A stretch of DNA of 50,121 bases from Nitrospiria bacterium (lineage in GTDB: Bacteria > Nitrospirota > Nitrospiria > DASWJH01). The position numbers and the translations under genes are program-made. Positions 3,658-46,380 of the stretch are shown here, one piece after another; the stretch's first letter is position 1, and every line of letters begins with the position of its first letter. The stretch is taken from the NCBI GenBank assembly GCA_036397255.1, contig DASWJH010000015.1, positions 1 to 50,121 on the forward strand, written 5' to 3'. The notes under the pieces were generated by a model that saw nothing but the letters and a program-made list of their open reading frames with translations, was not told the origin of the DNA and did no database searches.

Positions 3658-4095
3658 ATGGCACTGTCAGATTTTTGCAAGGGACCTGTAATTACTGCAT
3701 CTCCGGAAGAGAGTGTGTTGCATGCTTCAATCTTGATGCGGGATAATAAAATTGGATCTGTGGTGATCACCAAAGATGAAAGGCCCATTGGTATTTTGAC
3801 AGACCGGGATATCGTGATGCGGTTAATGACGGATAGCAAAGAAGGATTCAACACAAAAATCCAGGAGGTGATGACCAAAAATCCTTATGTGGTTCCGGAA
3901 GGGATTGGCATTTGGGACCTGATTAAGAGGATGAAGAAATATGCTGTGCGGCGCTTTCCGGTTGTTTCCGGTGAAGGTAAAATTGTTGGGATGATTACAA
4001 TGGATGACCTCATTGAGTTAATGGGCGAGGAGTTGTCCGGCCTGGGTCATACCATTTCTCAAGAAGTGGGCCACGGTGAAATGAAAGCCGCCTAA
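3658..4095 (+). CDS. paired CBS-domain protein
   Basis: Small cytosolic protein of 145 residues that is essentially one CBS pair (Bateman module). The first CBS motif spans about residues 8-62 (IGSVVITKDERPIGILTDRD) and the second about 72-130 (RRFPVVSGEGKIVGMITMDD). Such modules bind adenine nucleotides and regulate partner enzymes or channels. No effector domain is attached, so the partner must be encoded elsewhere. AAGGAGG lies just upstream of the ATG. A strong terminator directly follows, so it is transcriptionally separate from the cytochrome block downstream. The ligand is not predictable. Confidence 0.88.
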   Translation: MALSDFCKGPVITASPEESVLHASILMRDNKIGSVVITKDERPIGILTDRDIVMRLMTDSKEGFNTKIQEVMTKNPYVVPEGIGIWDLIKRMKKYAVRRFPVVSGEGKIVGMITMDDLIELMGEELSGLGHTISQEVGHGEMKAA

Positions 4096-4110
4096 GGATT
4101 AATGGTCTTT

Positions 4111-4146
4111 GGAGGAAAAGAGGAGTTTTTTTCCTCCATTTTTTTT
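4111..4146 (+). terminator. rho-independent terminator after the CBS gene
   Basis: The inverted repeat GGAGGAAAA (4111-4119) and TTTTCCTCC (4129-4137) encloses a nine-base loop and is followed by A and eight Ts. It lies 15 bases after the CBS stop codon and insulates the cytochrome operon that starts at 4257. Confidence 0.8.
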
Positions 4147-4256: not shown

Positions 4257-6494
4257 ATGTGGAGAAGTTTTATTTTTCTTTTTTTTGCAGCCAATTTTTT
4301 AGTGGTTGGTGGATGCGGGGAAGATGAAACCATCATTGTGGAGGTTGATAAACCCTTTAATGAAAATAAACTCAACGTGAAAATTACAAGGGTCGTGATA
4401 CCCAGCAGCGATCGGAAACCGGTGGTGTCCTTTGAGCTAACGGATGAAGCAGGAAATGCCCTGGATCGTGATGGGATTTCTACATCAGGGGCTGTGCGAA
4501 CCCGTTTTCTCATTGCACGAATCGAAGACGGGGAACGGCAATATACCAGCTATATCACACGCAATTCAACAAGCTCTATCACGGGGAATTCTGCTCTTCA
4601 AGCCAACTCTGAATCCAATGAGGGAACCTACACTGCACTGGGAAACGGTATTTATACTTATACCTTTGATATTGCTCTTCCTTTGACCTTTAACCCCGAT
4701 ATTACCCATACCGTGGGAATTTATGCGGATCGGCCTTTTCAAGGGAAAACATACATCTCCAATACTACCTTTGATTTCATCCCATCGGGAGGCGATGTCC
4801 GAATTGTTCGGGATATCGTCCGGTCAGAGGCTTGTAACAATTGCCATAATCCCTTGGGAGCCCATGGGGATTTCAGAAGGGATGTTAAGGTTTGTATCCT
4901 TTGTCATACGCCTCAGACCAGCGATCCGGATACCGGTCAAACCATGGATTTCAATGTGATGATTCACAAGATACATAGGGGGGCGGAGCTTCCCAGTGTT
5001 CAGGGGGGAACCCCCTACCAGATTATCGGATTTGGTTCCACTGTATTTGATTTTTCAACGGTGGAGTTTCCGCAGGATATTAGAAATTGTACCCAGTGCC
5101 ATACCGGAGGGACACAAAGTGACCATTATAAGAATAAGCCTTCCAGGGCATCCTGCGGTTCTTGCCATGATGACGTGAATTTCTTAAGTGGGGCCAACCA
5201 TGGGGGAGGCATTCAGTTGGATGATAATAACTGTTCTGCCTGCCACCTTTCTTCCACCGGTAAGGAATTTGATCTGTCGGTGGTTGGTTCCCATACGATT
5301 CCAGTCAAGTCCATCCAGGTTCCGGGATTGATTTTCAATATTGTCGGCGTAGAAAGCGCAGAGACCGGATTGAGCACGGTGGCCCCGGGAGAGCATCCGA
5401 AAGTCACGTTTAACATTAAAACCGGGACAGGAGGCTCCGTCCTCCCTTCTGAAATGAGGGTTCTCAGGTTAACTTTGGCCGGTCCCACGACAGACTATAC
5501 AATCCAGGACTATAATAACGACGCATCCAAAACTCCCCCTGAGGAAGATTATAAACAGGAGGATCCCCGATCTTCTGCAATTGCAGATGGCTTGGGGAAT
5601 TTCACCTATACGTTTGTGGGTCAAATTCCAACGGATGGCTCCGGTAGCTATGCCATCGGCGTGGAAGGATATCGGTGTGTGACGGTCCAGGGAATCAATT
5701 CAAGGAAAGGGGGGTTGAATTGTTCAGGAACCAGGGACCCCAATGGCAATGGCACAGAAGATCCCGGAGAGGTTTTTAATGAAGTCCGGGATGCCGGGGA
5801 AAATGTAGTCACTTATTTTCCAGTAACGGATTCAGTGGCAGTGCCGCGCCGGAAGGTTGTGGATACCTCCACCAAATGTGTCTCCTGCCATGGTATTTTC
5901 TCAAAGGATTTTTCCGTTCATGGCGGAACCCGAAATACCACGGAGTATTGTGCGCTCTGTCATAACGTCTCCCACGATACATTGGGGAGGCAGCCTTCTA
6001 CGGAGGGTGTGGCGACGGTCACCAAATCCGTTGATTTCAGAGTGATGATCCATAAGATTCACCAAGGGGAAAATCTCACAAATTCCTATGTTCTCTACAG
6101 TTTTTCCTCCCAGCCCATCGATTTCAGCGAGGTCCTCTTTCCGGGAAATACACGGGATTGTGAATCCTGCCATTTAAGCGGAACCTATTCCCTAAAGTCC
6201 GGGGAAGGAATTTTGGGGACGGGGGTTTTGTCGACCCTCACACGAGAATTCATCCGGACGGGAACCACAAAAAATATCACCAATACATTTACAAGCCCCC
6301 CTGTGGTGACGGTCTGCACCGCCTGCCATGATCATGTGGACCCCGAAGTGGGGACCAATCACTTGGCGGGGGCCCAGCCTGAAAGTGATTGTGTCATTTG
6401 TCACGGAGAAGGAAAAGCCTTGGGGGCGGAGAATCCATCTGTTCATTTTCCTCCCCTTCCGCCGGAAAGGCGTATGGAACGTCCACAGGGATAA
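4257..6494 (+). CDS. OmcA/MtrC-family decahaem c-type cytochrome lipoprotein
   Basis: Predicted outer-surface terminal cytochrome that passes electrons to or from extracellular acceptors or donors. Ten CxxCH sites are seen, in two clusters of five: Cys at about residues 193, 213, 278, 300, 326 and 541, 565, 635, 687, 712. Each pentahaem cluster follows a beta-rich domain, the I-II-III-IV layout of MtrC/OmcA. MIHKIH segments supply likely distal His ligands in both clusters. A CX14C pair at residues 474-489 in the second beta domain recalls the disulfide of this family. The start chosen is ATG 4257, because it gives a lipoprotein signal with lipobox VVGGC (Cys20). An in-frame GTG at 4173 would add 28 residues ahead of the signal. 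It is the first gene of the conduit operon. Confidence 0.92.
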   Translation: MWRSFIFLFFAANFLVVGGCGEDETIIVEVDKPFNENKLNVKITRVVIPSSDRKPVVSFELTDEAGNALDRDGISTSGAVRTRFLIARIEDGERQYTSYITRNSTSSITGNSALQANSESNEGTYTALGNGIYTYTFDIALPLTFNPDITHTVGIYADRPFQGKTYISNTTFDFIPSGGDVRIVRDIVRSEACNNCHNPLGAHGDFRRDVKVCILCHTPQTSDPDTGQTMDFNVMIHKIHRGAELPSVQGGTPYQIIGFGSTVFDFSTVEFPQDIRNCTQCHTGGTQSDHYKNKPSRASCGSCHDDVNFLSGANHGGGIQLDDNNCSACHLSSTGKEFDLSVVGSHTIPVKSIQVPGLIFNIVGVESAETGLSTVAPGEHPKVTFNIKTGTGGSVLPSEMRVLRLTLAGPTTDYTIQDYNNDASKTPPEEDYKQEDPRSSAIADGLGNFTYTFVGQIPTDGSGSYAIGVEGYRCVTVQGINSRKGGLNCSGTRDPNGNGTEDPGEVFNEVRDAGENVVTYFPVTDSVAVPRRKVVDTSTKCVSCHGIFSKDFSVHGGTRNTTEYCALCHNVSHDTLGRQPSTEGVATVTKSVDFRVMIHKIHQGENLTNSYVLYSFSSQPIDFSEVLFPGNTRDCESCHLSGTYSLKSGEGILGTGVLSTLTREFIRTGTTKNITNTFTSPPVVTVCTACHDHVDPEVGTNHLAGAQPESDCVICHGEGKALGAENPSVHFPPLPPERRMERPQG

Positions 6495-6498
6495 GAGA

Positions 6499-6810
6499 AT
6501 GGGAAAATTTTCTTTTCTGGTTCCTCTGCTCCTCCTGTTCTTGTTGAGCTGCGCAGAATCGGGGGATGATGAGGGGCAGAACTTAGGGAATCTTTTTGAA
6601 GGTCCCGGTGGTATTATTGTGACACAGGCGGAACACCCTGAGGGTTGGGGACGTTCGGACTGTTTGATTTGTCATCCGGCAGAAGAAATCCATCGTGTTA
6701 ATCGAACAGGTGAAGGAACACTTCCCCTTGAGGATATCAGGGAACTTGCCCTGAGGGCAGGCGTAGGGGGGTGCTCGGTATGCCATGGGGACAACGGGGT
6801 TACCGAATAA
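6499..6810 (+). CDS. small dihaem c-type cytochrome lipoprotein
   Basis: Predicted 103-residue lipoprotein with two haem-binding sites, CLICH (Cys55) and CSVCH (Cys92). The signal peptide has lipobox LLSC (Cys18), followed by an acidic linker ESGDDEG. It starts four bases after the decahaem stop and its stop touches the TTG of the porin-like gene, so the three are almost certainly co-translated. The small size suggests a relay subunit next to the decahaem protein or at the mouth of the barrel. I do not recognise a named family. Membrane leaflet (inner face of the outer membrane or surface) cannot be told from sequence. Confidence 0.82.
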   Translation: MGKFSFLVPLLLLFLLSCAESGDDEGQNLGNLFEGPGGIIVTQAEHPEGWGRSDCLICHPAEEIHRVNRTGEGTLPLEDIRELALRAGVGGCSVCHGDNGVTE

Positions 6811-8106
6811 TTGGGAAAAAGATTTTTAAAAATCGGTTTGATTGCCTTTATCTTACTCTTTTCCAAAACGGGGGAAGCCAACGGCGAAGAAGAGATGCTA
6901 ATGCCTCAGGGTCCTTCCGTCGTTGGAAACTTCACTCTTGCCTTCCAGGCCAATAGCCCTCTCATCCGTTCCAATGGAAACCGGGAAAAGGTCCATCCCT
7001 TTTACCAATACCTGGAGCTCAATGCGGTTAGTCCGAAAGAGGGTCTTTCCTTTAACAGTTATTCAAGAGGAAGGCAGGTTTTTAGCGGAGAAGAACGCTC
7101 CTTTGATGCGTATTACGCTTTCCTGGAATATAGAAATGGTGGGGGAACAGTCGATGTCCGGTTAGGCAGGCAGATTCTAACAGAGGGGACCAATTATTAC
7201 CTGGTGGATGGAGGTTTGGTTAAATTTCGCCCCACGCAAGACATAGAAATCTTGGCTTATGCAGGGTACCAGGATCGAGATACCCACCCAGACCCTGAAG
7301 CTCCCTTAATCAGCTCATCCATATATGGGGTCAAATTAAAATCCAGTGAATTTCTCGATTCGATTATTTCGTTGGGATATGAAAGGATCAATCCCCAGGA
7401 TTTTGGCTCAAGGGATTTTCTTCATTTATCATTGAACAGACTGGTTCCGTTTACCGAGTCTGCGGACTTTTATACACGGGGGGAAATCGATGTAGGGGAG
7501 GGAGATCTTGCACTTTTGACCACGGGGGTGGGAATGACTCCCTACAAATCCCTTCACCTCAATGTGGAATATGATGTTTCCCGGCCTGACGGAGATCGGG
7601 GAGATTATTTGCAGGACCGCATTTTTGATCTTTTTTCAGTCAGCCGTCTTCACCAGGCGAAGACCGGTGTGACCTACATCCCGGCGAAATTTCTAAAAAC
7701 CTCTGCCAGCTATGCATTTTCCAGATATGAGGTATCCAACGGGGTGAGGGCCTACGGCCATCTGACCAGATTGGGTTTTTCCTGGGATTTTTGGCGTCGG
7801 GTCGGCCTCAAAGCCTTTCAAGGGCTTTATTATTTAAAAGGCCGTGGAAAGGACGAGGCGGTGGGGGTGAATTTCAGCGTTTCTGAGGAAATACTCAGAG
7901 GACTCAATTTACATTACTCGTTTGCATTTGTTCATGTGGAGACGTTGACCAACAAGATAGGGGATGCTTTCAGCCATGCGTTTGGACTTCAATATTTATT
8001 GATCCGAAATCTTTTATTGAAAGCCGAGGTTGAATTGAATGATAATCCTGATTTTCAAACCGATACCCGTGTCAATCTGGTAGCCAGCTATGATTTTTAC
8101 TTCTGA
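6811..8106 (+). CDS. porin-like outer-membrane beta-barrel of the electron conduit
   Basis: Predicted outer-membrane barrel of 431 residues without cysteine haem motifs. After a signal peptide (about residues 1-24, ending TGEANG) the sequence is a run of alternating amphipathic strands with aromatic ends (NSYSRGRQVF, YYAFLEYRNGGGTVDVRLGRQIL, LRGLNLHYSFAFVHVE) and the terminal aromatic residue typical of barrels (YDFYF). By position it would be the sheath through which cytochromes cross the outer membrane, as MtrB or OmbB do. Sequence similarity to those is not obvious to me, and it is shorter than MtrB. The start is TTG, directly abutting the upstream stop (TAATTG); later ATGs would remove the signal peptide. 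Confidence 0.8.
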   Translation: MGKRFLKIGLIAFILLFSKTGEANGEEEMLMPQGPSVVGNFTLAFQANSPLIRSNGNREKVHPFYQYLELNAVSPKEGLSFNSYSRGRQVFSGEERSFDAYYAFLEYRNGGGTVDVRLGRQILTEGTNYYLVDGGLVKFRPTQDIEILAYAGYQDRDTHPDPEAPLISSSIYGVKLKSSEFLDSIISLGYERINPQDFGSRDFLHLSLNRLVPFTESADFYTRGEIDVGEGDLALLTTGVGMTPYKSLHLNVEYDVSRPDGDRGDYLQDRIFDLFSVSRLHQAKTGVTYIPAKFLKTSASYAFSRYEVSNGVRAYGHLTRLGFSWDFWRRVGLKAFQGLYYLKGRGKDEAVGVNFSVSEEILRGLNLHYSFAFVHVETLTNKIGDAFSHAFGLQYLLIRNLLLKAEVELNDNPDFQTDTRVNLVASYDFYF

Positions 8107-8728
8107 AATCAAAAATGAGATCTTTCTTGGGGTTATCCTGGTTGGTATTTTTCTACTTCAGGGATGCCGTATGTCAGAAGTGGAGTGGGGATGGAAGGCC
8201 CAGAGGCCGGCGAGCATCCAGGAAGTTTTCTCCCATGAGGTACATGAAACCGTGTTGGAAAAAGAAGGGTTTGCCTGCTCGGTGTGCCATCCCATGGGGG
8301 CATTGATTGAGGAGGAAAAAGAAGAAGAAAAAATGTATGATTTTTCCAAAGAGGTTTTCTTTCCCGGAAAAGAGACCTGCCATTTTTGCCATTTTAACCC
8401 CAAGGGAATCAACGTGGCGCCGGGCAGGTGCGGCCTCTGTCATTTCGATCTTCTGGAGGTTCAGCCTGCCAATCATCAATTCGACTGGGGTTCCAAGCAT
8501 GGGGTCTACGCCAAAGCAGATGGGGGAGATTGTGGAAGCTGCCATCTTCCCAAGTTTTGTGAGGATTGCCATCAGCGAAGAGATCTTCCGACGCAAAGGG
8601 TTCATGACCGGAATTTCAGGTTTGTTCACGGAATGGAGGCTCGGGTCAATCCAAAATCTTGTGGTAACTGCCACGAGCTGATTGGGTTTTGCGCGAGCTG
8701 CCATATCGAGGGGGGATATGAAAGGTAA
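8090..8728 (+). CDS. heptahaem c-type cytochrome lipoprotein
   Basis: Predicted lipoprotein of 212 residues with seven CxxCH sites at about Cys63, 97, 114, 148, 157, 191 and 201. The N-terminal membrane segment ends in lipobox LLQGC (Cys26). The haems are packed closely in the last 150 residues, as in wire-like periplasmic cytochromes. The ATG overlaps the end of the porin-like gene by 17 bases, so the two are translationally linked. No strong ribosome site is seen. The likely role is the periplasmic or barrel-inserted partner, an MtrA analogue, though it has seven rather than ten haems. The gene end overlaps the next cytochrome by 11 bases. Confidence 0.85.
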   Translation: MIFTSEIKNEIFLGVILVGIFLLQGCRMSEVEWGWKAQRPASIQEVFSHEVHETVLEKEGFACSVCHPMGALIEEEKEEEKMYDFSKEVFFPGKETCHFCHFNPKGINVAPGRCGLCHFDLLEVQPANHQFDWGSKHGVYAKADGGDCGSCHLPKFCEDCHQRRDLPTQRVHDRNFRFVHGMEARVNPKSCGNCHELIGFCASCHIEGGYER

Positions 8729-9311
8729 TTGGTGGCTAATGGTCATTCTTTTTTTGATCCTATCTCCCGGAGTCATAAGTGCCCAGGAGGGGGATGAGGA
8801 AAATCCCCATGTGGAGATGCTTGACGATCAGTTTGTTTGCCTGGATTGCCACACCCGGCTTCCGAAGGAAGGGGAAACCAGTCCAGATTATTTTCTGGTT
8901 GATCTTCCCTCAGAGAATTGTCTAGGCTGTCATTCGGAAGTGGAACATTCTGGGGTGAAGGAACATGAGAAGAAAGATTCGGGTCCGCTTCCAGGGGATG
9001 AAAACAGAAAAATGACCTGCTTTACCTGCCATGATCCCCACCCCCAAGGTTCCATTCATGGAAGGATTGTTTATGATTCGGAGGTGAACCCAAGGAGCAG
9101 GGATTTTACAAGAATCATTCATTTTCCGGATGTTGAAAAAAGGGCCAAAAAAGAAGTGGCCCCGGGTAAAAAAAAGGAAGTTTATCTTAGGTTTCCCATG
9201 GGTCAGGACCAACTTTGCCGGGAGTGCCATGACCCTTTGAAGGAAGCCCAATGGAGAGAGGGGATTTTATGGAACAAGTTTTTAAGGTTTTTTTCCTATT
9301 CATTGCCCTAG
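8718..9311 (+). CDS. tetrahaem periplasmic c-type cytochrome
   Basis: Predicted exported protein of 197 residues with four CxxCH sites at about Cys41, 68, 101 and 167. A signal peptide covers residues 1-22 (ending VISAQEG) and no lipobox is present. Extra histidines (HDPHPQGSIHG, IIHF) could serve as distal ligands. The start is ATG 8718, preceded by GAGGGGGG; a longer in-frame start at 8682 lacks a ribosome site and would bury the signal. The gene overlaps both neighbours, upstream by 11 bases and downstream by 43. It probably shuttles or relays electrons between the inner-membrane NapC-like protein and the outer-membrane complex. The family is not recognised beyond multihaem cytochrome c. 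Confidence 0.83.
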   Translation: MKGNWWLMVILFLILSPGVISAQEGDEENPHVEMLDDQFVCLDCHTRLPKEGETSPDYFLVDLPSENCLGCHSEVEHSGVKEHEKKDSGPLPGDENRKMTCFTCHDPHPQGSIHGRIVYDSEVNPRSRDFTRIIHFPDVEKRAKKEVAPGKKKEVYLRFPMGQDQLCRECHDPLKEAQWREGILWNKFLRFFSYSLP

Positions 9312-9769
9312 TTTTTGTAGGAAGTATGGCCTTGGCCCAAGAGAAAAAAAGTGCCGAGGAGGGGCGTAAAATTTTTGTGGAGAAAAGATGTTATACCTGT
9401 CATACGGTCAAAGCGGAAGGCGAATTAATCGAAAAGGAAAAAGAGGCATTCGCCAAATCCAAGGGGGTTGAGCTAAAAGGCGAAGATGAGGATGACGGCG
9501 ACGGGGAAGATGAAGATAAAAAAGATTCAAAGATAGGTGGGGATCTTTCCCATGTGGGAAAGGAGAGAGAAGGAAAGTGGATCCGAGACTTTATTCAAAA
9601 ACCCAAGGACCAATTTAAGGATTCTTCCGATTGCAAGAGAAAAGCTAAGAAAAAAGATCGAAAGCGTTTTAAAGGAACGGAAAAGGAACTGGAGGTTTTG
9701 GTAGGATACATTTCCGGTTTGAAATATCCGCAACAAGAGAAAAAACCCGAAACCTGTTTGAAAGAGTAG
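9269..9769 (+). CDS. monohaem cytochrome c with acidic insert
   Basis: Exported 166-residue protein with a signal peptide (residues 1-23, ending SMALAQE) and one haem site, CYTCH at Cys41. The surrounding EEGRKIFVEKRC and later GGDLSHVGKEREGKWIRDFI resemble class I cytochrome c. Residues about 70-92 form an Asp/Glu-rich stretch (GEDEDDGDGEDEDKKD). The last third is lysine-rich with two further cysteines (SSDCKRK, PETCLKE). I see no clear axial methionine near the C-terminus, so the sixth ligand is uncertain. The start is ATG 9269 with AGAGGGG upstream. The protein could be the soluble carrier feeding the conduit. Confidence 0.83.
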   Translation: MEQVFKVFFLFIALVFVGSMALAQEKKSAEEGRKIFVEKRCYTCHTVKAEGELIEKEKEAFAKSKGVELKGEDEDDGDGEDEDKKDSKIGGDLSHVGKEREGKWIRDFIQKPKDQFKDSSDCKRKAKKKDRKRFKGTEKELEVLVGYISGLKYPQQEKKPETCLKE

Positions 9770-9799
9770 ATTCTAAAGAAAGATTGAGAGGGAAAACGT

Positions 9800-10411
9800 A
9801 TGCTTGAGGAAAATTTGGTCAAAGCTATTGGTATTGGCTTGTGTGTGTTCACCATTCTTCTTGTGGTTTATACGATTTTCTTCAGACCGAAGTCCTTTCT
9901 GGAAGATATCACCGCCCGTTGGCTTTTATTGTTTGGATTTGTCATTTTATCCCCTCTGGCCTATCTGTTGAGCTTTGCCATGGTGTTCGAAGATTCTAAA
10001 ACGGTTTCGTTCTGTAATTCCTGCCATGTGATGGAAAGCCGTGTTGAGAATCTCAAAAACCCTGATAGTGAATATTTGGCCGCCCAGCATTATCAATTCC
10101 GGTGGATTGCAAATAATCAGTGCTATCACTGTCATACGGATTATAATCTTTTCGGAGGGTTCAGAGGAAAAATTGCCGGGTTTAGGCATGTTTGGGCCTA
10201 TTATGTGGTGGGTTATGAGTTGCCCCTAAAAATTTATGGGACTTACGATAACCAGATCTGTCTTTATTGCCACGGGCCGGTACGTAATTATCAAGAACTG
10301 GAAGAGCATCAGGATTACCTAAAGGATCTTGATCTCAGCAAGAAGTCCTGTTTAGGATCAGATTGTCATATCGCAACACATCCCAAAGAGAGGAAGAAAA
10401 GTGGCCTCTGA
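9800..10411 (+). CDS. NapC/NirT-like membrane tetrahaem cytochrome
   Basis: Probable inner-membrane quinol dehydrogenase subunit of 203 residues. Two hydrophobic segments lie at about residues 8-28 and 41-62. Haem sites follow: CNSCHVM (Cys72, with Met78 placed like the Met ligand of NrfH haem 1), CYHCH (Cys108), CLYCH (Cys154) and a non-standard CX4CH, CLGSDCH (Cys184). NapC/NrfH proteins usually have one transmembrane anchor, so the extra N-terminal helix is unusual. It lies at the end of the multihaem operon, where it would connect the quinone pool to the periplasmic cytochromes. GAGAGGG precedes the ATG, and the gene overlaps the next by 11 bases. Confidence 0.85.
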   Translation: MLEENLVKAIGIGLCVFTILLVVYTIFFRPKSFLEDITARWLLLFGFVILSPLAYLLSFAMVFEDSKTVSFCNSCHVMESRVENLKNPDSEYLAAQHYQFRWIANNQCYHCHTDYNLFGGFRGKIAGFRHVWAYYVVGYELPLKIYGTYDNQICLYCHGPVRNYQELEEHQDYLKDLDLSKKSCLGSDCHIATHPKERKKSGL

Positions 10412-10616
10412 AAACGTAAAAAAATTCAATAAGGCATTGATGTTTGCGGGAATCTTTAATATCATCGGTCTGTTATTGGTTTCATTCTCACTCTTTAAGG
10501 TGACTCCCATTACCATCATTCTTTCAACGGGTGTGGGAGGTCTCCTCATTGGCATGGCGGTTCTTTTATATCTTAAGGTGGTTATTCAAGATCTTCGGAA
10601 ACAGAAAATTCTATGA
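10401..10616 (+). CDS. small two-helix membrane protein of the cytochrome operon
   Basis: Hypothetical protein of 71 residues with two predicted transmembrane helices (about 13-32 and 36-58), a basic N-terminus and a basic C-terminus (DLRKQKIL). It starts at a GTG within the end of the NapC-like gene, preceded by GAGAGGAAG. The overlap suggests it is a small subunit or assembly partner of that membrane cytochrome. No cysteine, histidine or haem motif is present. I do not recognise the family. It closes the plus-strand block; a convergent gene begins 17 bases later. Confidence 0.65.
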   Translation: MASENVKKFNKALMFAGIFNIIGLLLVSFSLFKVTPITIILSTGVGGLLIGMAVLLYLKVVIQDLRKQKIL

Positions 10617-10633: not shown

Positions 10634-11476
10634 TTATACGGAATTAAACCCTTCTTGACTAACCAGAACCCGTTTGTCTCCCAAAACGGTTTGAAAAATA
10701 TTTCGGACCTCCCATAATTTTTCTAGCTTGGCCCATTCCGAATATCCCCCGGTATTGAGTCTTTTCACAAAATCCGTCCTCAGGGTTCTTTTTCCGTTTG
10801 AACCATCGCCGATGAGAAAATGGTCTAAGATCACCCTGTGGGATGCCTCGCCAATCCCTTGTGCAAAACCGATGGGATTTTTTAGTGGCAGTAGGGGACT
10901 GACAGTCGTTTGGGTCTGTATTCCTTTATCCTTGAACGCTTTTAGAGTTCCCAAACGCTGAAGGGGAGGAAAAGTATGGGGAGGAAACCCCGGAACGGGG
11001 TCCAGATCAGTTTCGACGGTCATGGAAACCCAGACCTGACATAGCCCTGATAATTTTTTTATGAGATGTAAATCCCGGCCGATTAAAGTGGAATGGGTTT
11101 GAATGACCAGAACATCGGGTGGTCGTGAAATCATTTTTTCCAATAATTCAGCCGTTAGCCCGAGGGATTTTTCCTGGGGGACATAGGGATCGGTGATACT
11201 GCTCATGTAAATTCTTAAAGGTTTTGCCTTTCCTCGTAAGGGGTGTTTGATTCGATCATAATCTTTTATATAGGTTTCTTTAATATTTTCTTTTGCTCCA
11301 TAAAGCCCCCACGGTCTGCCCTTAGTGTTCCATGTGATGTGCTGGGCATAACAAAACGTACCGCAAAGTGCATTTGCAAAGGAACACCCACTGTAAATAT
11401 TAACCGTGTGGGTAAATCCATTTTTCAGAAAGCCACCCGTGGGCGTCAGAAGGGTTTTATTGTCGATCCAGTCCAT
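10634..11476 (-). CDS. SPL-family radical SAM protein
   Basis: Protein of 280 residues resembling spore-photoproduct-lyase-like (SPL/Rv2578c type) radical SAM enzymes. The N-terminal segment has SGCSFANALCGTFCYAQ, giving cysteine spacing CX6CX3C rather than the canonical CX3CX2C. Downstream motifs fit the fold: RIYMSSITDPYVPQE, VLVIQTHST and VWVSMTVETD. These families often include enzymes of unknown substrate, some linked to DNA photolesion repair. It is transcribed convergently with the cytochrome operon and has no operon partner. The iron-sulfur ligation is inferred from the cysteine cluster. The actual reaction is unknown. Confidence 0.78.
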   Translation of the reverse strand: MDWIDNKTLLTPTGGFLKNGFTHTVNIYSGCSFANALCGTFCYAQHITWNTKGRPWGLYGAKENIKETYIKDYDRIKHPLRGKAKPLRIYMSSITDPYVPQEKSLGLTAELLEKMISRPPDVLVIQTHSTLIGRDLHLIKKLSGLCQVWVSMTVETDLDPVPGFPPHTFPPLQRLGTLKAFKDKGIQTQTTVSPLLPLKNPIGFAQGIGEASHRVILDHFLIGDGSNGKRTLRTDFVKRLNTGGYSEWAKLEKLWEVRNIFQTVLGDKRVLVSQEGFNSV

Positions 11477-11642
11477 TTTTTCGCATTTGATGATTTAATT
11501 AAAATTCTTTATAATTATAGTGGAGCGTATTTAATAATAGAATTATTAAAAATGTATTCCTGCTTTTTTTATAAGGTAATATGTCTTCCAACTGATGATT
11601 AACCTATTTTTAAATTTGTTGATAAAACAATCAAGGGAAATG

Positions 11643-12572
11643 ATGGCACATTCTGGTAAGGTTTTTATAGGATGTCTGGTAGCTGTTATCTTTGGTATTT
11701 CGGATAGTTATGGCTACACAGGAACGAAAGTTGGTAACGGGGGAAAAATCCATGGGAGGGTGATATTAAAAGGTCCCGTACCGGAACACCGGGCCTTTCC
11801 GATAGTTCTTTATCCGTTTGGGTCTTATTGCAAGAAAATATCCAATGGAGAAGGGTTGATTCTGCTCAAAGAGTTCAATGTCGATCTTGATGGAGGTTTG
11901 CAGGATGCCGTGGTGGCGGTTCAGGGTGTGACAAAAGGAAAGCGATTTCGGTCTAAAAAAAATCAATTTGTAGCCATTAACTGCATGTTTCATCCTGCCG
12001 ATGTTCCCGAAGACAAGCAATTTGAATTGCATGCCGGAAGATTGACCCACGTTCATCCGCTGGTCAGCATCATGAGGAACCACCGGCGCGTGTCTGTCGT
12101 GAACAAAGACCCTGTTCTACATGGAGGTCAGATTTATCAGCCGGAAACCGGTCACCGGGTGTTGAGTTTCCCTGTTCCGGTTTCTGGGGGAAAATTCGGG
12201 GGAACCATCCATTTGGGAAAGGGTAAAAAAATTGTCCAGATGATCTGTCCAATGCATGAATTTATGCAAAGCTGGGGATGGATCGTGGATAATCCCTATT
12301 TTGCCAAAACCCAAAAAGGAGGAGGGTATTTGATTGATGACTTATTGCCAGGGAAATACAAAGTCACCGCTTGGCATCCCCATCTCAAGCCCATAGAAAA
12401 AGAGTTTACCATCCTTGAAGGGAGAACCGTTTCGATCGATTTTGAGTTTGATCCCACTCAAGTGGTCCGTCCATTATACGAAACACAGGAGCATTTCCGG
12501 ATTCCACCTGAGTCCGATCCCTTTCAGGACCTGGAGGGTTGTGAAGACCCTTTTTGTGTGAAAAGAGATTGA
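11643..12572 (+). CDS. secreted cupredoxin-like protein
   Basis: Predicted periplasmic protein of about 309 residues with signal peptide residues 1-24 (ending DSYGYTG). The middle part contains DPVLHGGQIY and, about 55 residues later, ICPMHEFMQSW, a His...Cys-x2-His-x2-Met pattern reminiscent of blue-copper ligands. A carboxypeptidase-regulatory-like beta domain follows (GGYLIDDLLPGKYKVTAWHPH). The C-terminus has two further cysteines (EGCEDPFCVKR). The start is chosen at ATG 11643, five bases after AGGG; an ATG at 11640 sits too close and 11595 is too far upstream. It may be an electron-transfer or copper protein accompanying the nearby cytochromes, but that link is only positional. Confidence 0.7.
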   Translation: MAHSGKVFIGCLVAVIFGISDSYGYTGTKVGNGGKIHGRVILKGPVPEHRAFPIVLYPFGSYCKKISNGEGLILLKEFNVDLDGGLQDAVVAVQGVTKGKRFRSKKNQFVAINCMFHPADVPEDKQFELHAGRLTHVHPLVSIMRNHRRVSVVNKDPVLHGGQIYQPETGHRVLSFPVPVSGGKFGGTIHLGKGKKIVQMICPMHEFMQSWGWIVDNPYFAKTQKGGGYLIDDLLPGKYKVTAWHPHLKPIEKEFTILEGRTVSIDFEFDPTQVVRPLYETQEHFRIPPESDPFQDLEGCEDPFCVKRD

Positions 12573-25806: not shown

Positions 25807-27849
25807 ATGGAAAAGGGTAGGAGTTGGCTGTTGGGTTCCCGTAGCCGGGTATTTTTTACGGTTTTATTTGTTCTTCTGCTTCTTGATCTTGGGCGCTCCA
25901 TTTATGCCAGGATAGGATTCTCCCAACCTGCTGAGGTTTGGCAACCGGATTCCAAAATCTATTCAGATTTAAAATGGCCCCCGGGCAATTACCTTTCCCC
26001 GGACCTGCCATTGGGTGAGGGCATTTATTTTCAAAAGTGCGCGGTGTGTCATGGTCCGGATGGAAGGGGAAACGGACCCGCGGCACCCTCCATGATTCCT
26101 CGGCCACGGGATTTCACAAAAGGACAATTTAAATACAAATCCACACCACCCGGCCAACCGCCAAGCCATGAGGATTTGGTTTCCACGGTTTCCAATGGAC
26201 TTCGTGGAAGCGCAATGCCTTACTGGCATGACCTTTTATCCGAAAATGAAATTAATGAGGTCGTCAGCTTTATCAAAGGATTTTCCAGTGTTTTCCAGGA
26301 TTCTATTCCGGAATCTATTGAGATTCCACCTAGGGTAGAACCCAATGAAGAAAGCCTAAAGCGGGGTCAAATTCTTTATGGACAACAGGGATGCCTTGGC
26401 TGTCACGGCCTAGATGGACGAGCCACCCCAAGGCTTAAAGATTCAAAAGGTTATCCTGTTTTTTCCAGAGATCTGTCAGCCCCATGGACCTTTCGAGGGG
26501 GAAGTTCTCCGGAACAAATTTGGTTGAGAATAACTACCGGTTTGGCCCCCAGTCCAATGCCATCTTATGCGGAAGTGATTCCCCCCGATGAGCGTTGGGA
26601 CCTGGTGAATTACGTTTTATCGCTTGCCCGTGTTCCCCCATGGGAAGCAGGAGGCAAATTAGAAGGGCCGGGTCAGCATCGTGATTTGATCCGGCGGGGT
26701 GAATATCTGGTTCATGCACAAATGTGTGGTCTTTGTCATACCCAGATCAACCGGACAGGAATCTACCGGGGGGATGATTTTTATCTTGCGGGTGGAATGC
26801 GCGTGGATGCCTATCCCCATGGTTTCTACATCTCCAGAAATCTTACCTCTGATCCCGAAACGGGTTTAGGTCGGTGGGCAAAAGAAGAAATTGCCAATGC
26901 TATCCGAAACGGAAGGTCGCGGGACAGGGTCCTTAATCCCGTCGATATGCCCTGGCATTATCTGCACGCTTTGGAAGAAGAGGATGCAATGGCCATTGCC
27001 AGTTACTTGAAAACCCTAAAACCTGTTTATAATAAAATATCCCACGCTTTGCATTATGGGGTTGTGGAAACAATTGTCATGAAACTGCTGGAGCCTACCA
27101 AAGTCCTTCGTTTCATCGATGGGAATTTTGGTCAAAGGCCTCAGGGGCCTTTACTTGGACTTCCCCAGGAAATCCTTGTGGGTGCACAATTGTTGGTATT
27201 TATTCTTGGAATTTTTGCTTTCCTTTTTGCCGGGCCGCCAAATCGCCGCTACCCTCAGACCATCAGCGGTTGGATATTTTTATTTTTTATGGTTATTGGA
27301 ATATTTTTATTATGCATGGTGGGCTTAGCCGTTTTCCGATTTCCTGGCTTTATACTGATTCCCCCTGATCGGGTGGCCAATACGGTTCTTACCAAAATTC
27401 CCACGCCTAATGAAACCCATTTAAAAAGTCCGGAGCAGGCCGCTTTGGTGAAACGGGGCCGGTATCTATATACCGTTGCTTCCTGTGCCCTGTGTCATGG
27501 ACCGGAGGGGGGTGGAGGCCTAAAAATTAGCTGGCAAGCGTTCGGTACATTGTGGACTCGGAATATCACACCCCATCCCGAGAATGGGATAGGGGCCTGG
27601 AACGAGTTGGAGATTGCCAGGGCAATTCGAAGTGGTGTCACACCGGATGGGCGAATGCTTCACTGGCAGGGGATGATCTGGGATCACGCATCAAACTGGG
27701 ATGAAGAGGATATCCGGGCATTGGGGGCATATCTTCGAACCCTTCCTCCCGTTGACAATGAAGTCCCTCCGGCTCGGCCACCCGCCCCCGATGATTGTAA
27801 AAAATATACCTTTTGGATTACCCCAAGTGATTTGTACGGTTGTCAATAA
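25807..27849 (+). CDS. membrane protein with four class I cytochrome c domains
   Basis: Protein of 680 residues with four single-haem domains on one chain: CAVCH (Cys78), CLGCH (Cys196), CGLCH (Cys307) and CALCH (Cys560). Domains 1 and 2 carry likely axial methionines (GSAMPYW, PSPMPSY). Domains 3 and 4 resemble each other (NLTSDPETGLGRWAKEEIANAIRNG; NITPHPENGIGAWNELEIARAIRSG), as in alcohol-dehydrogenase-type cytochrome subunits, and look like a duplication. A membrane anchor lies at about 15-29 and a pair of helices at about 458-512 between domains 3 and 4. No oxidase or dehydrogenase partner is adjacent. It is probably an inner-membrane electron carrier to the periplasm. The partner is unknown. 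Confidence 0.88.
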   Translation: MEKGRSWLLGSRSRVFFTVLFVLLLLDLGRSIYARIGFSQPAEVWQPDSKIYSDLKWPPGNYLSPDLPLGEGIYFQKCAVCHGPDGRGNGPAAPSMIPRPRDFTKGQFKYKSTPPGQPPSHEDLVSTVSNGLRGSAMPYWHDLLSENEINEVVSFIKGFSSVFQDSIPESIEIPPRVEPNEESLKRGQILYGQQGCLGCHGLDGRATPRLKDSKGYPVFSRDLSAPWTFRGGSSPEQIWLRITTGLAPSPMPSYAEVIPPDERWDLVNYVLSLARVPPWEAGGKLEGPGQHRDLIRRGEYLVHAQMCGLCHTQINRTGIYRGDDFYLAGGMRVDAYPHGFYISRNLTSDPETGLGRWAKEEIANAIRNGRSRDRVLNPVDMPWHYLHALEEEDAMAIASYLKTLKPVYNKISHALHYGVVETIVMKLLEPTKVLRFIDGNFGQRPQGPLLGLPQEILVGAQLLVFILGIFAFLFAGPPNRRYPQTISGWIFLFFMVIGIFLLCMVGLAVFRFPGFILIPPDRVANTVLTKIPTPNETHLKSPEQAALVKRGRYLYTVASCALCHGPEGGGGLKISWQAFGTLWTRNITPHPENGIGAWNELEIARAIRSGVTPDGRMLHWQGMIWDHASNWDEEDIRALGAYLRTLPPVDNEVPPARPPAPDDCKKYTFWITPSDLYGCQ

Positions 27850-38553: not shown

Positions 38554-38585
38554 TTGACCCTGTACCTAAGTACAGGGATTATGAT
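38554..38585 (+). promoter_or_regulatory. MerR-type promoter/operator of the metal island
   Basis: A -35 element TTGACC (38554-38559) and -10 element TATGAT (38580-38585) are separated by 20 bases, longer than the usual 17, as in MerR-family promoters that need regulator-induced DNA untwisting. The spacer holds the perfect palindrome CCCTGTACCTAAGTACAGGG (38558-38577), with GTAC cores like those of mercury operators. It lies 19 bases upstream of the MerR ATG. Confidence 0.85.
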
Positions 38586-38604
38586 GATTTTGGAGGATTT
38601 CAAA

Positions 38605-39021
38605 ATGAAGACTTTTTCTTCGGGCCAATTGGCCAAAAAAGCCGGTGTCCATATTGAAACCATCCGGTTTTATGAACGGCGCGGACTTATTCCTAAAATG
38701 CCCCGGACCGGTTCGGGGTATCGAACATTTTCGGATGAGAGTGTGACCCGGATTCAATTTATTAAAGGGGCACAAATGGTGGGTTTTACTCTCAAGGAGA
38801 TTCAGGATCTGTTTTCCCTACGGGTTGATCCAAAGACCTCTTGCGGGAATATTAAAAAAAGAGCCGAGATCAAAATTTCAGAGATTGATTCAAAAATCTT
38901 GGCCCTGAAAAAAATGAGAAAAGCACTGTTTCGTTTAAAACATTCTTGCAGAGGGCGCGGTCCCACCAGTGAATGTCCGATTTTGGAAGCTCTGGATCGT
39001 CGAGGAGGAAAAATCCTTTGA
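38605..39021 (+). CDS. merR: MerR-family mercury-type transcriptional regulator
   Basis: Regulator of 138 residues. The N-terminal winged helix has SSGQLAKKAGVHIETIRFYERRGLI, followed by the dimerisation helix. Three cysteines are at 80, 115 and 124 (KTSCGN, KHSCRGRGP, SECPIL); their spacing of 35 and 9 equals that of Tn501 MerR Cys82/117/126, which bind Hg(II). ATG 38605 follows GGAGG; a longer frame starting inside the operator is rejected. It is the first gene of the operon it probably controls, so autoregulation is likely. Response to mercury is inferred from these cysteines. Confidence 0.88.
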   Translation: MKTFSSGQLAKKAGVHIETIRFYERRGLIPKMPRTGSGYRTFSDESVTRIQFIKGAQMVGFTLKEIQDLFSLRVDPKTSCGNIKKRAEIKISEIDSKILALKKMRKALFRLKHSCRGRGPTSECPILEALDRRGGKIL

Positions 39022-39035
39022 AGGATAGGAAAGAG

Positions 39036-39230
39036 ATGGAAATAAATGCCCGAATCACATGTCCCTTTTGCCGTTTTGAGAAAGAGGAGACCATGCCGAG
39101 GGATTTTTGTCAAATCAATTACATCTGTGGACGTTGCAAGAGGATGATGAAACCTAAACCTGGGACCTGTTGTATCTTTTGTTCCTACAGCGATACCGTT
39201 TGTCCACCGAAACAAATGAATAACTTTTAA
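39036..39230 (+). CDS. GDCCVxC-domain-like small cysteine-rich protein
   Basis: Cytosolic protein of 64 residues with nine cysteines. A CPFC pair near the N-terminus and CGRC in the middle precede KPGTCCIFCSYSDTVCPP, which is the GDCCVxC-domain signature seen in proteins near mer and other heavy-metal genes. It probably binds metal through these cysteine clusters. The start ATG 39036 has AGGAAAG upstream and lies 14 bases after the merR stop; an out-of-frame longer version overlaps merR and is unlikely. It is in the MerR operon. The biochemical role is unknown. Confidence 0.8.
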   Translation: MEINARITCPFCRFEKEETMPRDFCQINYICGRCKRMMKPKPGTCCIFCSYSDTVCPPKQMNNF

Positions 39231-39252
39231 GGAATTTAACGGGAGGTTTGAA

Positions 39253-39783
39253 ATGAATAAAGCATTTTGGGTTTTCCTTACGTTCCTTTTCTTTCTTGGA
39301 ATATCTACCCATGTGGGCCTTACATTTGCTGAATCAAAAAAAACAATTTTATTTCATTTGAAAACCAGTCTCAAGCATGATGACGCACAAATCTGCGTGG
39401 CTTACAATCAAATTTGGGCCGCTCTGGAGGAAGGGCTCAACGTCAATGTTCTCATTGATGCGGACGCCGTAAATACCTATAAAGTGGGATGGTTTGGGAA
39501 GGACGGAATTGAAAAGTTTAAACTGCCAGAAAACTTAAAATCATCGCTCTCTCAACAGTTTGGATTGAAAATGGAGGACATCCCTGCAACCTATGGGGAT
39601 TACCTCCACATGCTAAGGCAAAAAGGCGCCCAATTCTATATCAATAGTTCCATGTTGGTCGTTGCCGGAATTGAAGAAGATTTGGGTGCGGTTGATCATC
39701 TATCGGCCCCATTTTTTAAACCCCTCGGCCTCCGGGAAATGATCCGTTTGCGAAAGGAAGCGAATCTTTATATGGCTTATTGA
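39253..39783 (+). CDS. exported DsrE/DsrF-like protein
   Basis: Protein of 176 residues with a signal peptide (residues 1-24, ending GLTFAES). The mature part KKTILFHLKTSLKHDDAQ...NVNVLIDADAV and GAQFYINSSMLVVAGI fits the DsrE/DsrF-like alpha/beta fold, usually linked to sulfur-transfer or redox roles. A mature cysteine, QICVAYN near residue 50, could be reactive, but the family's Cys positions vary. GGGAGG precedes ATG. It is in the MerR operon; export to the periplasm is unusual for this family and may mean metal/thiol chemistry outside the cytosol. Confidence 0.78.
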   Translation: MNKAFWVFLTFLFFLGISTHVGLTFAESKKTILFHLKTSLKHDDAQICVAYNQIWAALEEGLNVNVLIDADAVNTYKVGWFGKDGIEKFKLPENLKSSLSQQFGLKMEDIPATYGDYLHMLRQKGAQFYINSSMLVVAGIEEDLGAVDHLSAPFFKPLGLREMIRLRKEANLYMAY

Positions 39784-39796
39784 GAGAAAACAAGAC

Positions 39797-40054
39797 ATGG
39801 TTTTGAATGTCAAAGAATCTGGCCTCATCGGAGGTCTCTTTGCACTCCCTTGGTGCTGTATCTCACCAGGAATTTTTTCTGTTATCGGATTGGCTGGCAT
39901 GGATCTGTCCCGACAAGTCACCGGGAACCTTTCACCTATTCTACTTGTTATGTCCTTGTTTTTTCTGGGAAGAGTCCATTTTTTATTGTACGTCAAGGCT
40001 CAAGGAAGCCGAACCAGCGCTGTCGTGACTTGGGTTTCAACCCTGTTGGGATGA
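39797..40054 (+). CDS. MerT-like small membrane protein
   Basis: Membrane protein of 85 residues with about two to three hydrophobic segments. The first carries GLIGGLFALPWCCISPGIF, a vicinal Cys pair placed as in MerT/MerC mercury transporters, where the CC hands Hg(II) through the membrane. The second and third segments are at about residues 46-64 and 70-84. No further Cys pair is seen, unlike MerT, which has a second in a loop. Association with the MerR operon supports a mercury or metal importer. Position, not full homology, carries the assignment. Confidence 0.65.
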   Translation: MVLNVKESGLIGGLFALPWCCISPGIFSVIGLAGMDLSRQVTGNLSPILLVMSLFFLGRVHFLLYVKAQGSRTSAVVTWVSTLLG

Positions 40055-40071
40055 GCTCTTTGGAGGTTGAG

Positions 40072-40908
40072 ATGGTTTGGATCAATTCAATGAAGGGATT
40101 CGTTGGAGGAATGGCCTTTTGGTTCCTATTGATAGGAACCTCCTATGCCCATGAACCCATATTTATGATCAGCCATGAGGCACCCGGTAAAGGAGCTTTT
40201 GACCTTCATACCGAAATGACCCATGAGCGCCAGGGAGATGAGCGGGAGTTTGAGATAGAGCAAGAATTCACCTACGGTCTGACGCGGGACTTGGCCGTAG
40301 GCCTTTCCATGCCCTTTGTCCGTGAGGAAGAAATGACCTCAACGGGTCAAGACGTAGAAAACGGCCTGGGTGATCCGACTGTGCGCCTCAAATGGCGTTT
40401 TTGGGATAAAGATCTTCCCGGCGTGAAGTATGCCATTGCCACTGTGATTCAGTCCACTCTTCCAGTCGGTGAAGGGGATGGAAGGCTTGGCCGTGATCAA
40501 CCGAGCATTCTCGGGGGCCTGGCCCATGGGCGTGAGGGGCTGCACTGGTACTATTTTGTGGACGCTCGATACCTTTATCATGTTGAAGATCATCAGAGCA
40601 TGCCGGGGAACCGGATCTATTTCGATGTGGCGTATGGGCTGCGCCCGGAACTTCGGGGGTTGGAAGAAACAGACATTGTTTATTTCTTCGAATTAAATTA
40701 TCTCCATGAGCGACAGGCCGAGGTCAGTGGAATTCCAAATCCCGACACCGGCGGGGATTTTCTCTTTTTCTCCCCCGAAATTTTAATTTCACCAACGAAT
40801 CGAGTCATGTTGCGGGGTGGGGTACAGATTCCGGTTCTGCAATCGTTAAACGGACAACAAGAGCCGAAGGATTTTAATTTTAAGGCACTTGCGGAGTTTA
40901 GATTTTAG
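40072..40908 (+). CDS. outer-membrane beta-barrel (Phenol_MetA_deg-like)
   Basis: Exported protein of 278 residues. A signal peptide (about residues 1-26, ending SYAHEP) is followed by alternating beta strands: EFEIEQEFTYGLTRDLAVGLSMPF, GLGDPTVRLKWRFW and YAIATVIQSTLPVGEGDG match outer-membrane barrels of the Phenol_MetA_deg group. It ends in LAEFRF with a terminal aromatic residue. The start is ATG 40072, five bases after GGAGG; an ATG 21 bases upstream has none. It follows the MerT-like gene by 17 bases, so it appears co-transcribed. It could be an outer-membrane channel for the island's substrate. Confidence 0.75.
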   Translation: MVWINSMKGFVGGMAFWFLLIGTSYAHEPIFMISHEAPGKGAFDLHTEMTHERQGDEREFEIEQEFTYGLTRDLAVGLSMPFVREEEMTSTGQDVENGLGDPTVRLKWRFWDKDLPGVKYAIATVIQSTLPVGEGDGRLGRDQPSILGGLAHGREGLHWYYFVDARYLYHVEDHQSMPGNRIYFDVAYGLRPELRGLEETDIVYFFELNYLHERQAEVSGIPNPDTGGDFLFFSPEILISPTNRVMLRGGVQIPVLQSLNGQQEPKDFNFKALAEFRF

Positions 40909-41101
40909 CAGGATGTTGAAAAACTTCGAATCCGTCATTCCCGAATGGTTTTATCGGGCCCGCCTGCCGGCAGGCAGGAATCCAGGATTTTTAAAATCAA
41001 CAACTTCTGGATTCCCGCTCCCCGATAGAGGCATTCGAGGACAGGTTTCGCGGGAATGACGACCTAACGCACAAATACATCCTTTTTCAACACCCTGTTA
41101 G
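40906..41101. mobile_element. MITE-like palindromic element with terminal inverted repeats
   Basis: About 196 bases bounded by imperfect inverted repeats, TAGCAGGATGTTGAAAAA (40906-40923) and the complement of CTAACAGGGTGTTGAAAAA (41083-41101). Inside are nested palindromes, including copy D of the dispersed repeat (from 40934, GTCATTCCCG) and its complement ending at 41060. No transposase or coding frame is present. It begins over the outer-membrane protein's stop codon and separates it from the HMA-like gene. Target duplications were not clear. Confidence 0.6.
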
Positions 41102-41120
41102 TAAAGGAGGGGGGATTAAC

Positions 41121-41657
41121 ATGAAATACAAAGTTTTTTTGTTTTCGATGCTTTCAACCATCTTTTTTTCCCCATCACCGCCTGAAGCAAAGGTGATTGC
41201 CCCTTCTGCCGAGAAGGGTGAGAATAAGATTTTTATTCGTGCGGATGGACTGGCCTGTTACTTCTGCGCCTACGGTATGGAGCGCTTTTTTAAACAATCT
41301 GGCCGGATTGCCTGGTATGACATGAAGATGACAGAAGGAATTGTGGAGATTGGGTTTATCAGGGGCAAACCGATTCTGGATATTCAAACATTAAGAAAAT
41401 ATGTATACGATGCTGGATTTTCCCCCCGTGAGATCAAGGCTGAATTCGTGGGAAGGTTCAACCAGTTAAATGAAGGTTACACCTTTCAAATCACAGAAAC
41501 AGAGCAAATTTTCCCAGTGGAGGAGAATGCCATCATCCAACAAGCCATCGACATGATTGACCGTGAGGTCGTTTTGAAAGCGGGTACAAAGGATGCCCGA
41601 GATGCACCCTTTAAACTTGTGCCTGAATCCATAGACCCAAAAGGGTTTTCACCGTGA
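41121..41657 (+). CDS. exported HMA-like CxxC metal-binding protein
   Basis: Protein of 178 residues with a signal peptide (about residues 1-24). The segment FIRADGLACYFCAYGMERFFKQSGRI resembles the heavy-metal-associated domain, with CxxC (Cys46, Cys49) in place of the usual GMTCxxC. The domain ends by residue 110; a second half of unknown fold follows. AAGGAGGGGGG lies just upstream. Exported HMA-like proteins scavenge copper, silver or mercury in the periplasm. It overlaps the NHL gene by four bases. It is the first gene after the MITE-like element, so its promoter may be distinct from that of the MerR operon. Confidence 0.75.
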   Translation: MKYKVFLFSMLSTIFFSPSPPEAKVIAPSAEKGENKIFIRADGLACYFCAYGMERFFKQSGRIAWYDMKMTEGIVEIGFIRGKPILDIQTLRKYVYDAGFSPREIKAEFVGRFNQLNEGYTFQITETEQIFPVEENAIIQQAIDMIDREVVLKAGTKDARDAPFKLVPESIDPKGFSP

Positions 41658-42640: not shown

Positions 42641-42650
42641 ACCTGATATT

Positions 42651-42759
42651 CCCCGTAGCATGCTACGGGGTAGCTATTTAGTTCCCCCTTTGGAAAAGGG
42701 GGATTCAGGGGGATTAAATTTTGTAAAATCTCCCCTTGCCCCTCTTTTCCAAAGAGGGG
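42651..42759. repeat. cluster of three palindromes
   Basis: After the NHL gene come a perfect 20-base palindrome (42651-42670, arms CCCCGTAGCA and TGCTACGGGG), a hairpin CCCCCTTTGGAAAAGGGGG (42684-42702) and a hairpin CCCCTCTTTTCCAAAGAGGGG (42739-42759). They resemble the G/C-rich hairpin strips at 29401 and 30964. They may terminate the HMA/NHL transcript. Confidence 0.6.
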
Positions 42760-44712: not shown

Positions 44713-44737
44713 GGTTTTAAAAAAAGGAGCGGAAAAA

Positions 44738-46378: not shown

Positions 46379-46380
46379 TC

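Follow-up and report, generated by a model that had tools for sequence, protein, structure and literature searches.

Electron conduits across the outer membrane have been described in several layouts. In the Ext clusters of Geobacter, the gene for a barrel (ExtB, ExtE) precedes that for an outer-membrane lipoprotein with five haems (ExtC, ExtF), some relatives carry a decahaem lipoprotein upstream of extE, and clusters of this layout are required for the reduction of Fe(III), Mn(IV) or electrodes (PMC6148476). The locus described here lies in a 50,121-nucleotide stretch of a Nitrospiria genome (assembly GCA_036397255.1, contig DASWJH010000015.1), hereafter the window, and is best read as a hybrid in which the cap is of MtrC type, the barrel and plug of Ext type and the entry of Nap type. 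Like Shewanella MtrCAB with CymA, it includes a protein of the OmcA/MtrC family and a NapC-type protein that would serve the conduit as quinol dehydrogenase. Compared by description, it also resembles Geobacter OmbB-OmaB-OmcB in pairing a barrel and a medium-sized cytochrome (eight haems in OmaB) with a large surface cytochrome, whereas OmcB is a dodecahaem protein according to the accessible part of its description (PMC4245776) and the large cytochrome here belongs to the OmcA/MtrC family. The porin-cytochrome clusters of Ca. Manganitrophus, a plausibly related lineage, likewise combine an outer-membrane barrel with a multihaem cytochrome; the accessible part of their description terms them porin-dodecahaem and mentions neither an MtrC-type cap nor a seven-haem protein (PMC9040806).

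The locus consists of eight intact open reading frames on the + strand (positions 4257-10616 of the window), here named A to H (Table 1), which overlap or nearly touch, with successive spacings of 4, 0, -17, -11, -43, 30 and -11 bases. The sequence-only reading had described eight adjacent genes with 28 haem sites, and the recount agrees: genes A to H contain 10, 2, 0, 7, 4, 1, 3 and 0 CXXCH motifs, 27 in all, and a CX4CH motif in G brings the haem sites to 28 (10+2+0+7+4+1+4+0). A reversed control pattern returned 73 matches on both strands of the whole 3.35 Mb genome, or about 0.07 per 6.4 kb per strand, which excludes a chance origin of the 27 CXXCH motifs. In A, B and D, the signal sequence ends in a lipobox-like cysteine (VGGC, LLSC and LQGC, respectively), those of B and D being read by eye and accepted as lipoboxes only by relaxed rules. 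Searches for viral contigs and plasmids returned no matches. A terminator-like hairpin is located between a CBS-domain gene (3658-4095) and gene A.

Table 1. Features of the eight-gene cluster and its upstream region, in window coordinates.
Feature	Coordinates	Strand	Length	Evidence or remark
Terminator-like hairpin	4110..4138	+		13 pairs then T8; consensus match only; upstream of cluster
Gene A, OmcA/MtrC-family decahaem lipoprotein, probable surface cap	4257..6494	+	745 aa	TIGR03507, PF22113, PDB, 10 CXXCH, lipobox
Gene B, small dihaem lipoprotein-like protein	6499..6810	+	103 aa	2 CXXCH; HPxGW motif
Gene C, predicted outer-membrane barrel, probable conduit sleeve	6811..8106	+	431 aa	Leave-one-out family profile
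Gene D, heptahaem lipoprotein, probable plug in or under barrel	8090..8728	+	212 aa	Leave-one-out profile, alignment
Gene E, exported tetrahaem cytochrome, probable periplasmic relay	8718..9311	+	197 aa from ATG	4 CXXCH, PF14522
Gene F, exported class I monohaem cytochrome c	9269..9769	+	166 aa	PF00034
Gene G, NapC/NirT-type tetrahaem membrane protein, probable quinol dehydrogenase	9800..10411	+	203 aa	PF03264
Gene H, small membrane protein with two hydrophobic helices, putative partner of G	10401..10616	+	71 aa	GTG start; homologue in locus L043

The product of gene A matched TIGR03507 with 436 bits (cut-off 209.3, E 2.5e-130) over residues 52-723 of 745, and also PF22113 and the PDB structures of OmcA, MtrF, UndA and MtrC. 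Its ten CXXCH motifs fall into two pentahaem groups (positions 193-326 and 541-712), and its lipobox occupies residues 17-20. Judged by its sequence, A genuinely belongs to the OmcA/MtrC family of decahaem proteins, and its nearest relative found sits in an MtrAB-type cluster. Unlike MtrCAB, the cluster has no second decahaem (MtrA-type) gene, and C shows no detectable similarity to MtrB-type barrels: it does not match TIGR03509, and a profile comparison against two MtrB-like proteins gave a probability of 0.2%, so that an assignment of C as MtrB was rejected. A genome-wide search with TIGR03509 returned no match, with the control likewise silent.

The order of genes C and D matches that of Geobacter ExtBC and ExtEF, a barrel followed by a short multihaem lipoprotein, and in layout the barrel-cytochrome pair resembles ExtBC/ExtEF rather than MtrAB. 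With respect to ExtABCD and ExtEFG, the locus differs in the seven haems of D, in the absence of a dodecahaem ExtA/ExtD/ExtG and in the addition of a NapC module. Against a barrel-family profile built without it, C scored 93.6 bits (E 5e-28, residues 53-429) with a maximum of 22% identity to family members, and profile comparison thus identifies it as a highly divergent member of a barrel family that has no curated model. Pfam and NCBIfam searches with this family gave stray weak matches only; PDB profile searches with it matched no solved structure, and those with the short cytochrome returned nothing useful. The sequence of C contains no cysteine, ends in YDFYF and shows a strand-like alternation (z 2.3), and a single-sequence AlphaFold2 model, with a pLDDT of 31, was discarded. 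Nothing in these data points to a non-porin, and C is taken as a putative closed barrel. A count of amphipathic strands gave 33 candidates in C and is too unspecific for use.

Protein D scored 55.2 bits (E 3e-16, residues 113-205) against a profile of a five-haem core built without it. The best of 500 shuffles of D with fixed cysteines and histidines reached 46.3 bits, indicating that part of this similarity reflects haem spacing. The alignment resolves D into the five-haem core and two N-terminal haems (2+5), an architecture absent from the other barrel loci read.

The barrel family was detected in 51 of 396 genomes of the same phylum (Nitrospirota), and in 52 of 55 loci the next gene encodes a D-homologous cytochrome with 5, 8, 9 or 19 haems. 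The pair is hence a conserved unit, and relatives of C and of D lie together rather than scattered. The same survey tempers the sequence-only reading's claim that the set is unfamiliar, which overstated its novelty: a barrel of about 430 residues paired with a short multihaem lipoprotein is spread widely across the phylum and follows the published Ext layout (PMC6148476). An MtrC-family protein occurs within 6 kb of the barrel in eight of the 55 loci read, and the best match in architecture (L018) encodes an MtrC-family protein of 859 residues, a barrel, a 5-haem lipoprotein and an HPxGW lipoprotein.

The regular coupling of barrel to cytochrome also bears on a different reading, in which C would be a channel that admits a small soluble substrate, such as an oxyanion, and the cytochromes would reduce this substrate within the outer membrane or at it. 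C would make a small barrel, and in Geobacter the loss of ExtI impairs selenite and tellurite reduction, with a channel role not ruled out there (PMC5877670). Set against the coupling, and given that an MtrC-type surface protein would be useless for a substrate entering the periplasm, we regard such a channel as very improbable.

The third gene at related loci usually encodes a large multihaem protein, and in the window only the small dihaem B is present. No family match was obtained for B in Pfam and NCBIfam profile searches. Its HPxGW motif also occurs in large lipoproteins of related clusters, but homology to these was discarded, as the motif alone is shared and the profile similarity (E 0.006) is not significant. 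Neither B nor E has specific relatives in related loci. E, with a signal peptide read by eye, matches PF14522 (30 bits) and F matches PF00034 (32 bits), both above cut-off. An alternative upstream start is possible for gene E (TTG at 8682). Monohaem cytochromes recur elsewhere adjoining or fused to this barrel type; F belongs to the same protein class as those encoded upstream of other barrels, but orthology was rejected, as no specific homology was found.

Protein G matches PF03264 with 45.2 bits (cut-off 24.1), contains two N-terminal hydrophobic helices, compared with one in CymA, and shares 33-42% identity with its relatives. It presents three CXXCH motifs and the sequence CLGSDCH as fourth haem site. 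In an alignment of seven family proteins, the other six have CXXCH at this position, so CLGSDCH is a genuine haem site carrying two inserted residues. Relatives of the G-H module in the same class are mostly found beside NapA-like reductases, and at one such locus (L043) a homologue of H (E 4e-7) directly follows a homologue of G beside a NapA-like protein. Taken together, G and H probably form a quinol-dehydrogenase module, with quinol oxidation as its putative activity.

G and H occur elsewhere without a conduit, and at none of the other barrel loci read does a NapC-like gene lie within 9 kb. The cluster might thus comprise two systems, genes A-D for the outer-membrane conduit and, next to them, genes E-H for a periplasmic module of NapC type unrelated to it. 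Yet genes D-E, E-F and G-H are joined by overlaps of 11-43 bases, and cymA is clustered with mtrAB in several bacteria (PMC6295460). Furthermore, the only two PF00384 matches in the genome lie inside complex I clusters, which leaves G without a Nap-type partner; the possibility that G works with a Nap reductase encoded here was rejected on the same ground. We therefore consider two separate systems improbable.

We favour with some confidence a reading of the operon as one electron line that would span the whole envelope between the quinone pool and the cell surface. Localisation, complex formation and electron path, as we infer them, would be as follows. At the inner membrane, G together with H would exchange electrons with the quinone pool, which E and F would relay through the periplasm, the five-haem core of D, inside or under barrel C, would carry them across the outer membrane, and the surface lipoprotein A, perhaps together with B, would pass them to an extracellular partner, for instance a metal oxide, a shuttle or another cell. 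The conduit with its own quinol dehydrogenase proposed by the sequence-only reading thus stands as the best reading.

Outward flow is slightly favoured over inward. The same conduit might instead run inward, a reading of lesser but substantial probability in which A would accept electrons outside the cell, from Fe(II), Mn(II) or a mineral, for delivery through D/C and E/F to cytochrome bd-like oxidases, and G would reduce quinone for reverse electron transport. In the genome, bd-like oxidase genes adjoin c-type cytochromes, COX1 was not found, and complex I is encoded in two clusters, of which one seems to include an additional NuoM; such features are described in the Mn(II)-oxidising Ca. Manganitrophaceae (PMC9040806). 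F is of a soluble monohaem carrier type, and CymA has been proposed as a quinone reductase in Sideroxydans (PMC6295460). Conversely, the NapA-like reductases adjoining the relatives of G indicate the quinol-oxidising direction, and RuBisCO was not found in the genome.

Each module of the proposed electron line is known or widespread, but their combination was found in no other genome searched here. More speculatively, the line could be a self-contained one, with a seven-haem plug in a small barrel, a laterally acquired MtrC-type cap and a captured Nap-type dehydrogenase, in a lineage that a single genome represents here, possibly for Fe(II)/Mn(II) oxidation. The presence on an Ext-type barrel of an MtrC-type cap whose nearest relative found belongs to an MtrAB-type cluster suggests that extracellular electron transfer is built from interchangeable units, namely surface cap, membrane wire and quinone module. 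Being compact, with eight genes and a quinone entry of its own, the set also offers a practical target for reconstitution, and the uncurated barrel with its 5-, 8- or 9-haem partner, given its spread in the phylum, is a candidate for a major conduit type.

The eight genes of the cluster, here A to H, lie on the forward strand at window positions 4257-10616 and encode, in this order, a decahaem (A) and a dihaem (B) cytochrome, a putative barrel (C), heptahaem (D), tetrahaem (E) and monohaem (F) cytochromes, a NapC-like protein (G) and a small membrane protein (H). Gaps between the genes do not exceed 30 bases, with overlaps at four junctions, and the haem sites number ten in A, two in B, none in C, seven in D, four in E, one in F, three CXXCH and one CX4CH in G, and none in H. 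Both the spacing, within about 30 bases, and the sum of 28 haems (10+2+7+4+1+4, one of them CX4CH) that the sequence-only reading had claimed are thus reproduced. Genome-wide, 339 CXXCH-coding matches were counted, versus 73 for a reversed control pattern, so that 27 CXXCH in 6.4 kb are far above chance; the CX4CH column of G aligns with CXXCH in six of six relatives. The window is one whole contig (C15) of an assembly of 3.35 Mb in 122 contigs (97% complete), and the order of this probable member of the Nitrospirota (class Nitrospiria) is represented in the genome set searched by this genome alone.

Features around the cluster, elsewhere in the genome and in related loci (L, fetched locus; C with number, contig of the source genome)
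Feature	Location	Strand	Remarks
Terminator-like hairpin	window 4110-4138		13 pairs then T8; between upstream CBS-domain gene and cluster
Gene downstream of cluster	window 10634-11476	opposite to A-H	
Exported 325-aa protein	window 11595-12572	+	weak CarboxypepD_reg match; cupredoxin-like CPMHEFM stretch (by eye); outside the operon, though close
680-aa protein	window 25807-27849	+	multiple class I cytochrome c domains, plus hydrophobic stretches
MerR-like regulator, then CusCBA-like heavy-metal efflux set	window 38554-49630	+	from sequences only; outer-membrane factor, membrane fusion protein, 1045-aa RND pump
1012-aa protein	C19:1573-4611 (L071)		fibronectin III, MopE-type Cu-binding motif, BNR repeats; one of a series of large exported proteins, of which several have single CXXCH motifs
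Cytochrome bd-like oxidase proteins, several	C14 (L068) and C6 (L070)		c-type cytochromes and a cytochrome b adjoining
Complex I cluster	C59:5000-18000 (L134)		apparently carries the extra NuoM, as in Nitrospira 2M complex I
Complex I cluster	C80:1-12000 (L135)		
Extended barrel-cytochrome pair	L131:8016 onwards	-	19-haem, 500-aa D-family protein right behind the barrel gene
Tandem duplication of barrel-cytochrome unit	L145:7498-14500 and L015:1263-10100		
Multihaem clusters, same class	L064:4643-11576 and L065:6579-12439		24-haem protein alongside one with 28 or 14 haems; YfiO/TPR repeats in a barrel-like protein; small Rieske-like protein; ~298-aa protein without Pfam match

C matched no curated family. 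It carries an export signal, lacks cysteine and ends in the aromatic stretch YDFYF; no hydrophobic helix was scored in it, and strand-like alternation is in excess (z 2.3, with 2.5 and 4.4 for two MtrB-like controls and values below zero for four soluble proteins). Judged from these sequence features, C is likely an outer-membrane barrel.

A single-sequence search with C in 396 genomes of the phylum returned weak homologues in eight other genomes, each with a multihaem cytochrome gene directly downstream. A profile built from nine barrels detected the family in 51 of the 396 genomes and in 6 of 270 of the class, with one copy in the source genome. Clustering of the homologues had been set beforehand as a test of the proposed conduit, and a cytochrome of the D family directly follows 52 of the 55 barrels located in fetched stretches, a count based on mechanical ORF calls that leaves out several further D-like proteins whose adjoining barrel ORF was not selected; the barrel profile contains no haem information, and some of the 55 loci also gave rows to both profiles. 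These 52 cytochromes carry five (24 loci), eight (5), nine (22) or 19 (1) haems. A barrel profile made without C recovered it over nearly its full length (E 5e-28), and a cytochrome profile made without D recovered residues 113-205 of D (E 3e-16, 55.2 bits). Shuffling D with all Cys and His fixed (n=500) gave a maximum of 46.3 bits (mean 17.6); haem spacing therefore accounts for much of the D score, not all. In the alignment, D comprises a five-haem core and two N-terminal haems, and the aligned eight- and nine-haem relatives are extended at the C-terminus instead. C sits on a very long branch.

Neighbours of the barrels were counted with small, home-made MtrC, NapC and cytochrome profiles. 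An MtrC-family protein is encoded within 6 kb of 8 of the 55 barrel genes, so the window is not alone in pairing this barrel type with an MtrC-type cap. TIGR03507 backs the calls in L018 and L015, both scoring below the family cut-off and the latter a fragment. In four loci (L148, L150, L152, L155) a class I monohaem cytochrome gene lies 31-77 bp upstream of the barrel, and in L019 (3908-5497, reverse strand) such a cytochrome is fused to the N-terminus of a family barrel, a Cyc2-like layout. Monohaem class I cytochromes beside or fused to related barrels support F as a functional part of the putative conduit.

A belongs to the OmcA/MtrC decahaem family (TIGR03507, 436 bits versus a cut-off of 209), presents a lipobox, matches the structures of OmcA, MtrF, UndA and MtrC, and is the only strong member of this family in its genome. 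The MtrC-family proteins of the barrel loci do not group with A in the tree, which suggests that they and A were recruited separately; two of these proteins sit on very long branches. The closest relative found for A (38%; grouping support 94/87) is encoded in L048, from the Acidobacteriota, where two genes adjoin it, one for a 620-aa protein and one for a decahaem protein that scores above the DmsE/MtrA family cut-off. This MtrCAB layout is a feature of A's relative and not of the window cluster; the 620-aa protein matched no NCBIfam model and is therefore MtrB-like by position and size only. The sample from outside the phylum comprises seven loci from one scan, and the full gene set may therefore occur elsewhere.

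G falls in the NapC/NirT family (PF03264, 45 bits) and has relatives in twelve other genomes of the class. Most full-length relatives with readable context adjoin a ~750-aa TAT-signal protein, and the two such proteins tested were both NapA-like; an H homologue follows the G homologue in L043. No NapC-like gene was detected within 9 kb of the barrel at the 55 other barrels. A Nap-type module hence seems to have been joined to the conduit here. In the source genome PF00384 was found in two proteins only, both inside complex I clusters. For Nitrospirae, no CymA homologue appears in a survey from 2018, which did list several cymA genes within mtrAB clusters elsewhere (PMC6295460).

Electrons would pass between the quinone pool and G/H, then E (and F), then D inside C, and finally A (and B) and the exterior. 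Flow may be outward, from the quinone pool to the surface, in line with the reductases adjoining relatives of G. It may also be inward: bd-like oxidase genes adjoin c-type cytochromes in a genome without COX1, complex I is encoded in two clusters, of which one seems to carry an additional NuoM, and these features recall the Mn(II)-oxidising Ca. Manganitrophaceae (PMC9040806), although RuBisCO is absent from the genome.

The cluster fails membership of the MtrCAB type, having no MtrA-type partner and a C without MtrB similarity. The order of C and D matches Geobacter ExtBC and ExtEF, in which a barrel precedes a pentahaem lipoprotein, a likeness of layout. In some relatives a decahaem lipoprotein is encoded upstream of extE, and the surface lipoprotein is said to be replaced frequently (PMC6148476). 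The view that the gene set is not a recognised one is hence narrowed, the barrel and lipoprotein arrangement being that of ExtBC and ExtEF. The cluster would operate as a porin-cytochrome conduit does, and it is not categorically new; what is new in it is the heptahaem D, and the presence of cap, wire and quinone module within one operon.
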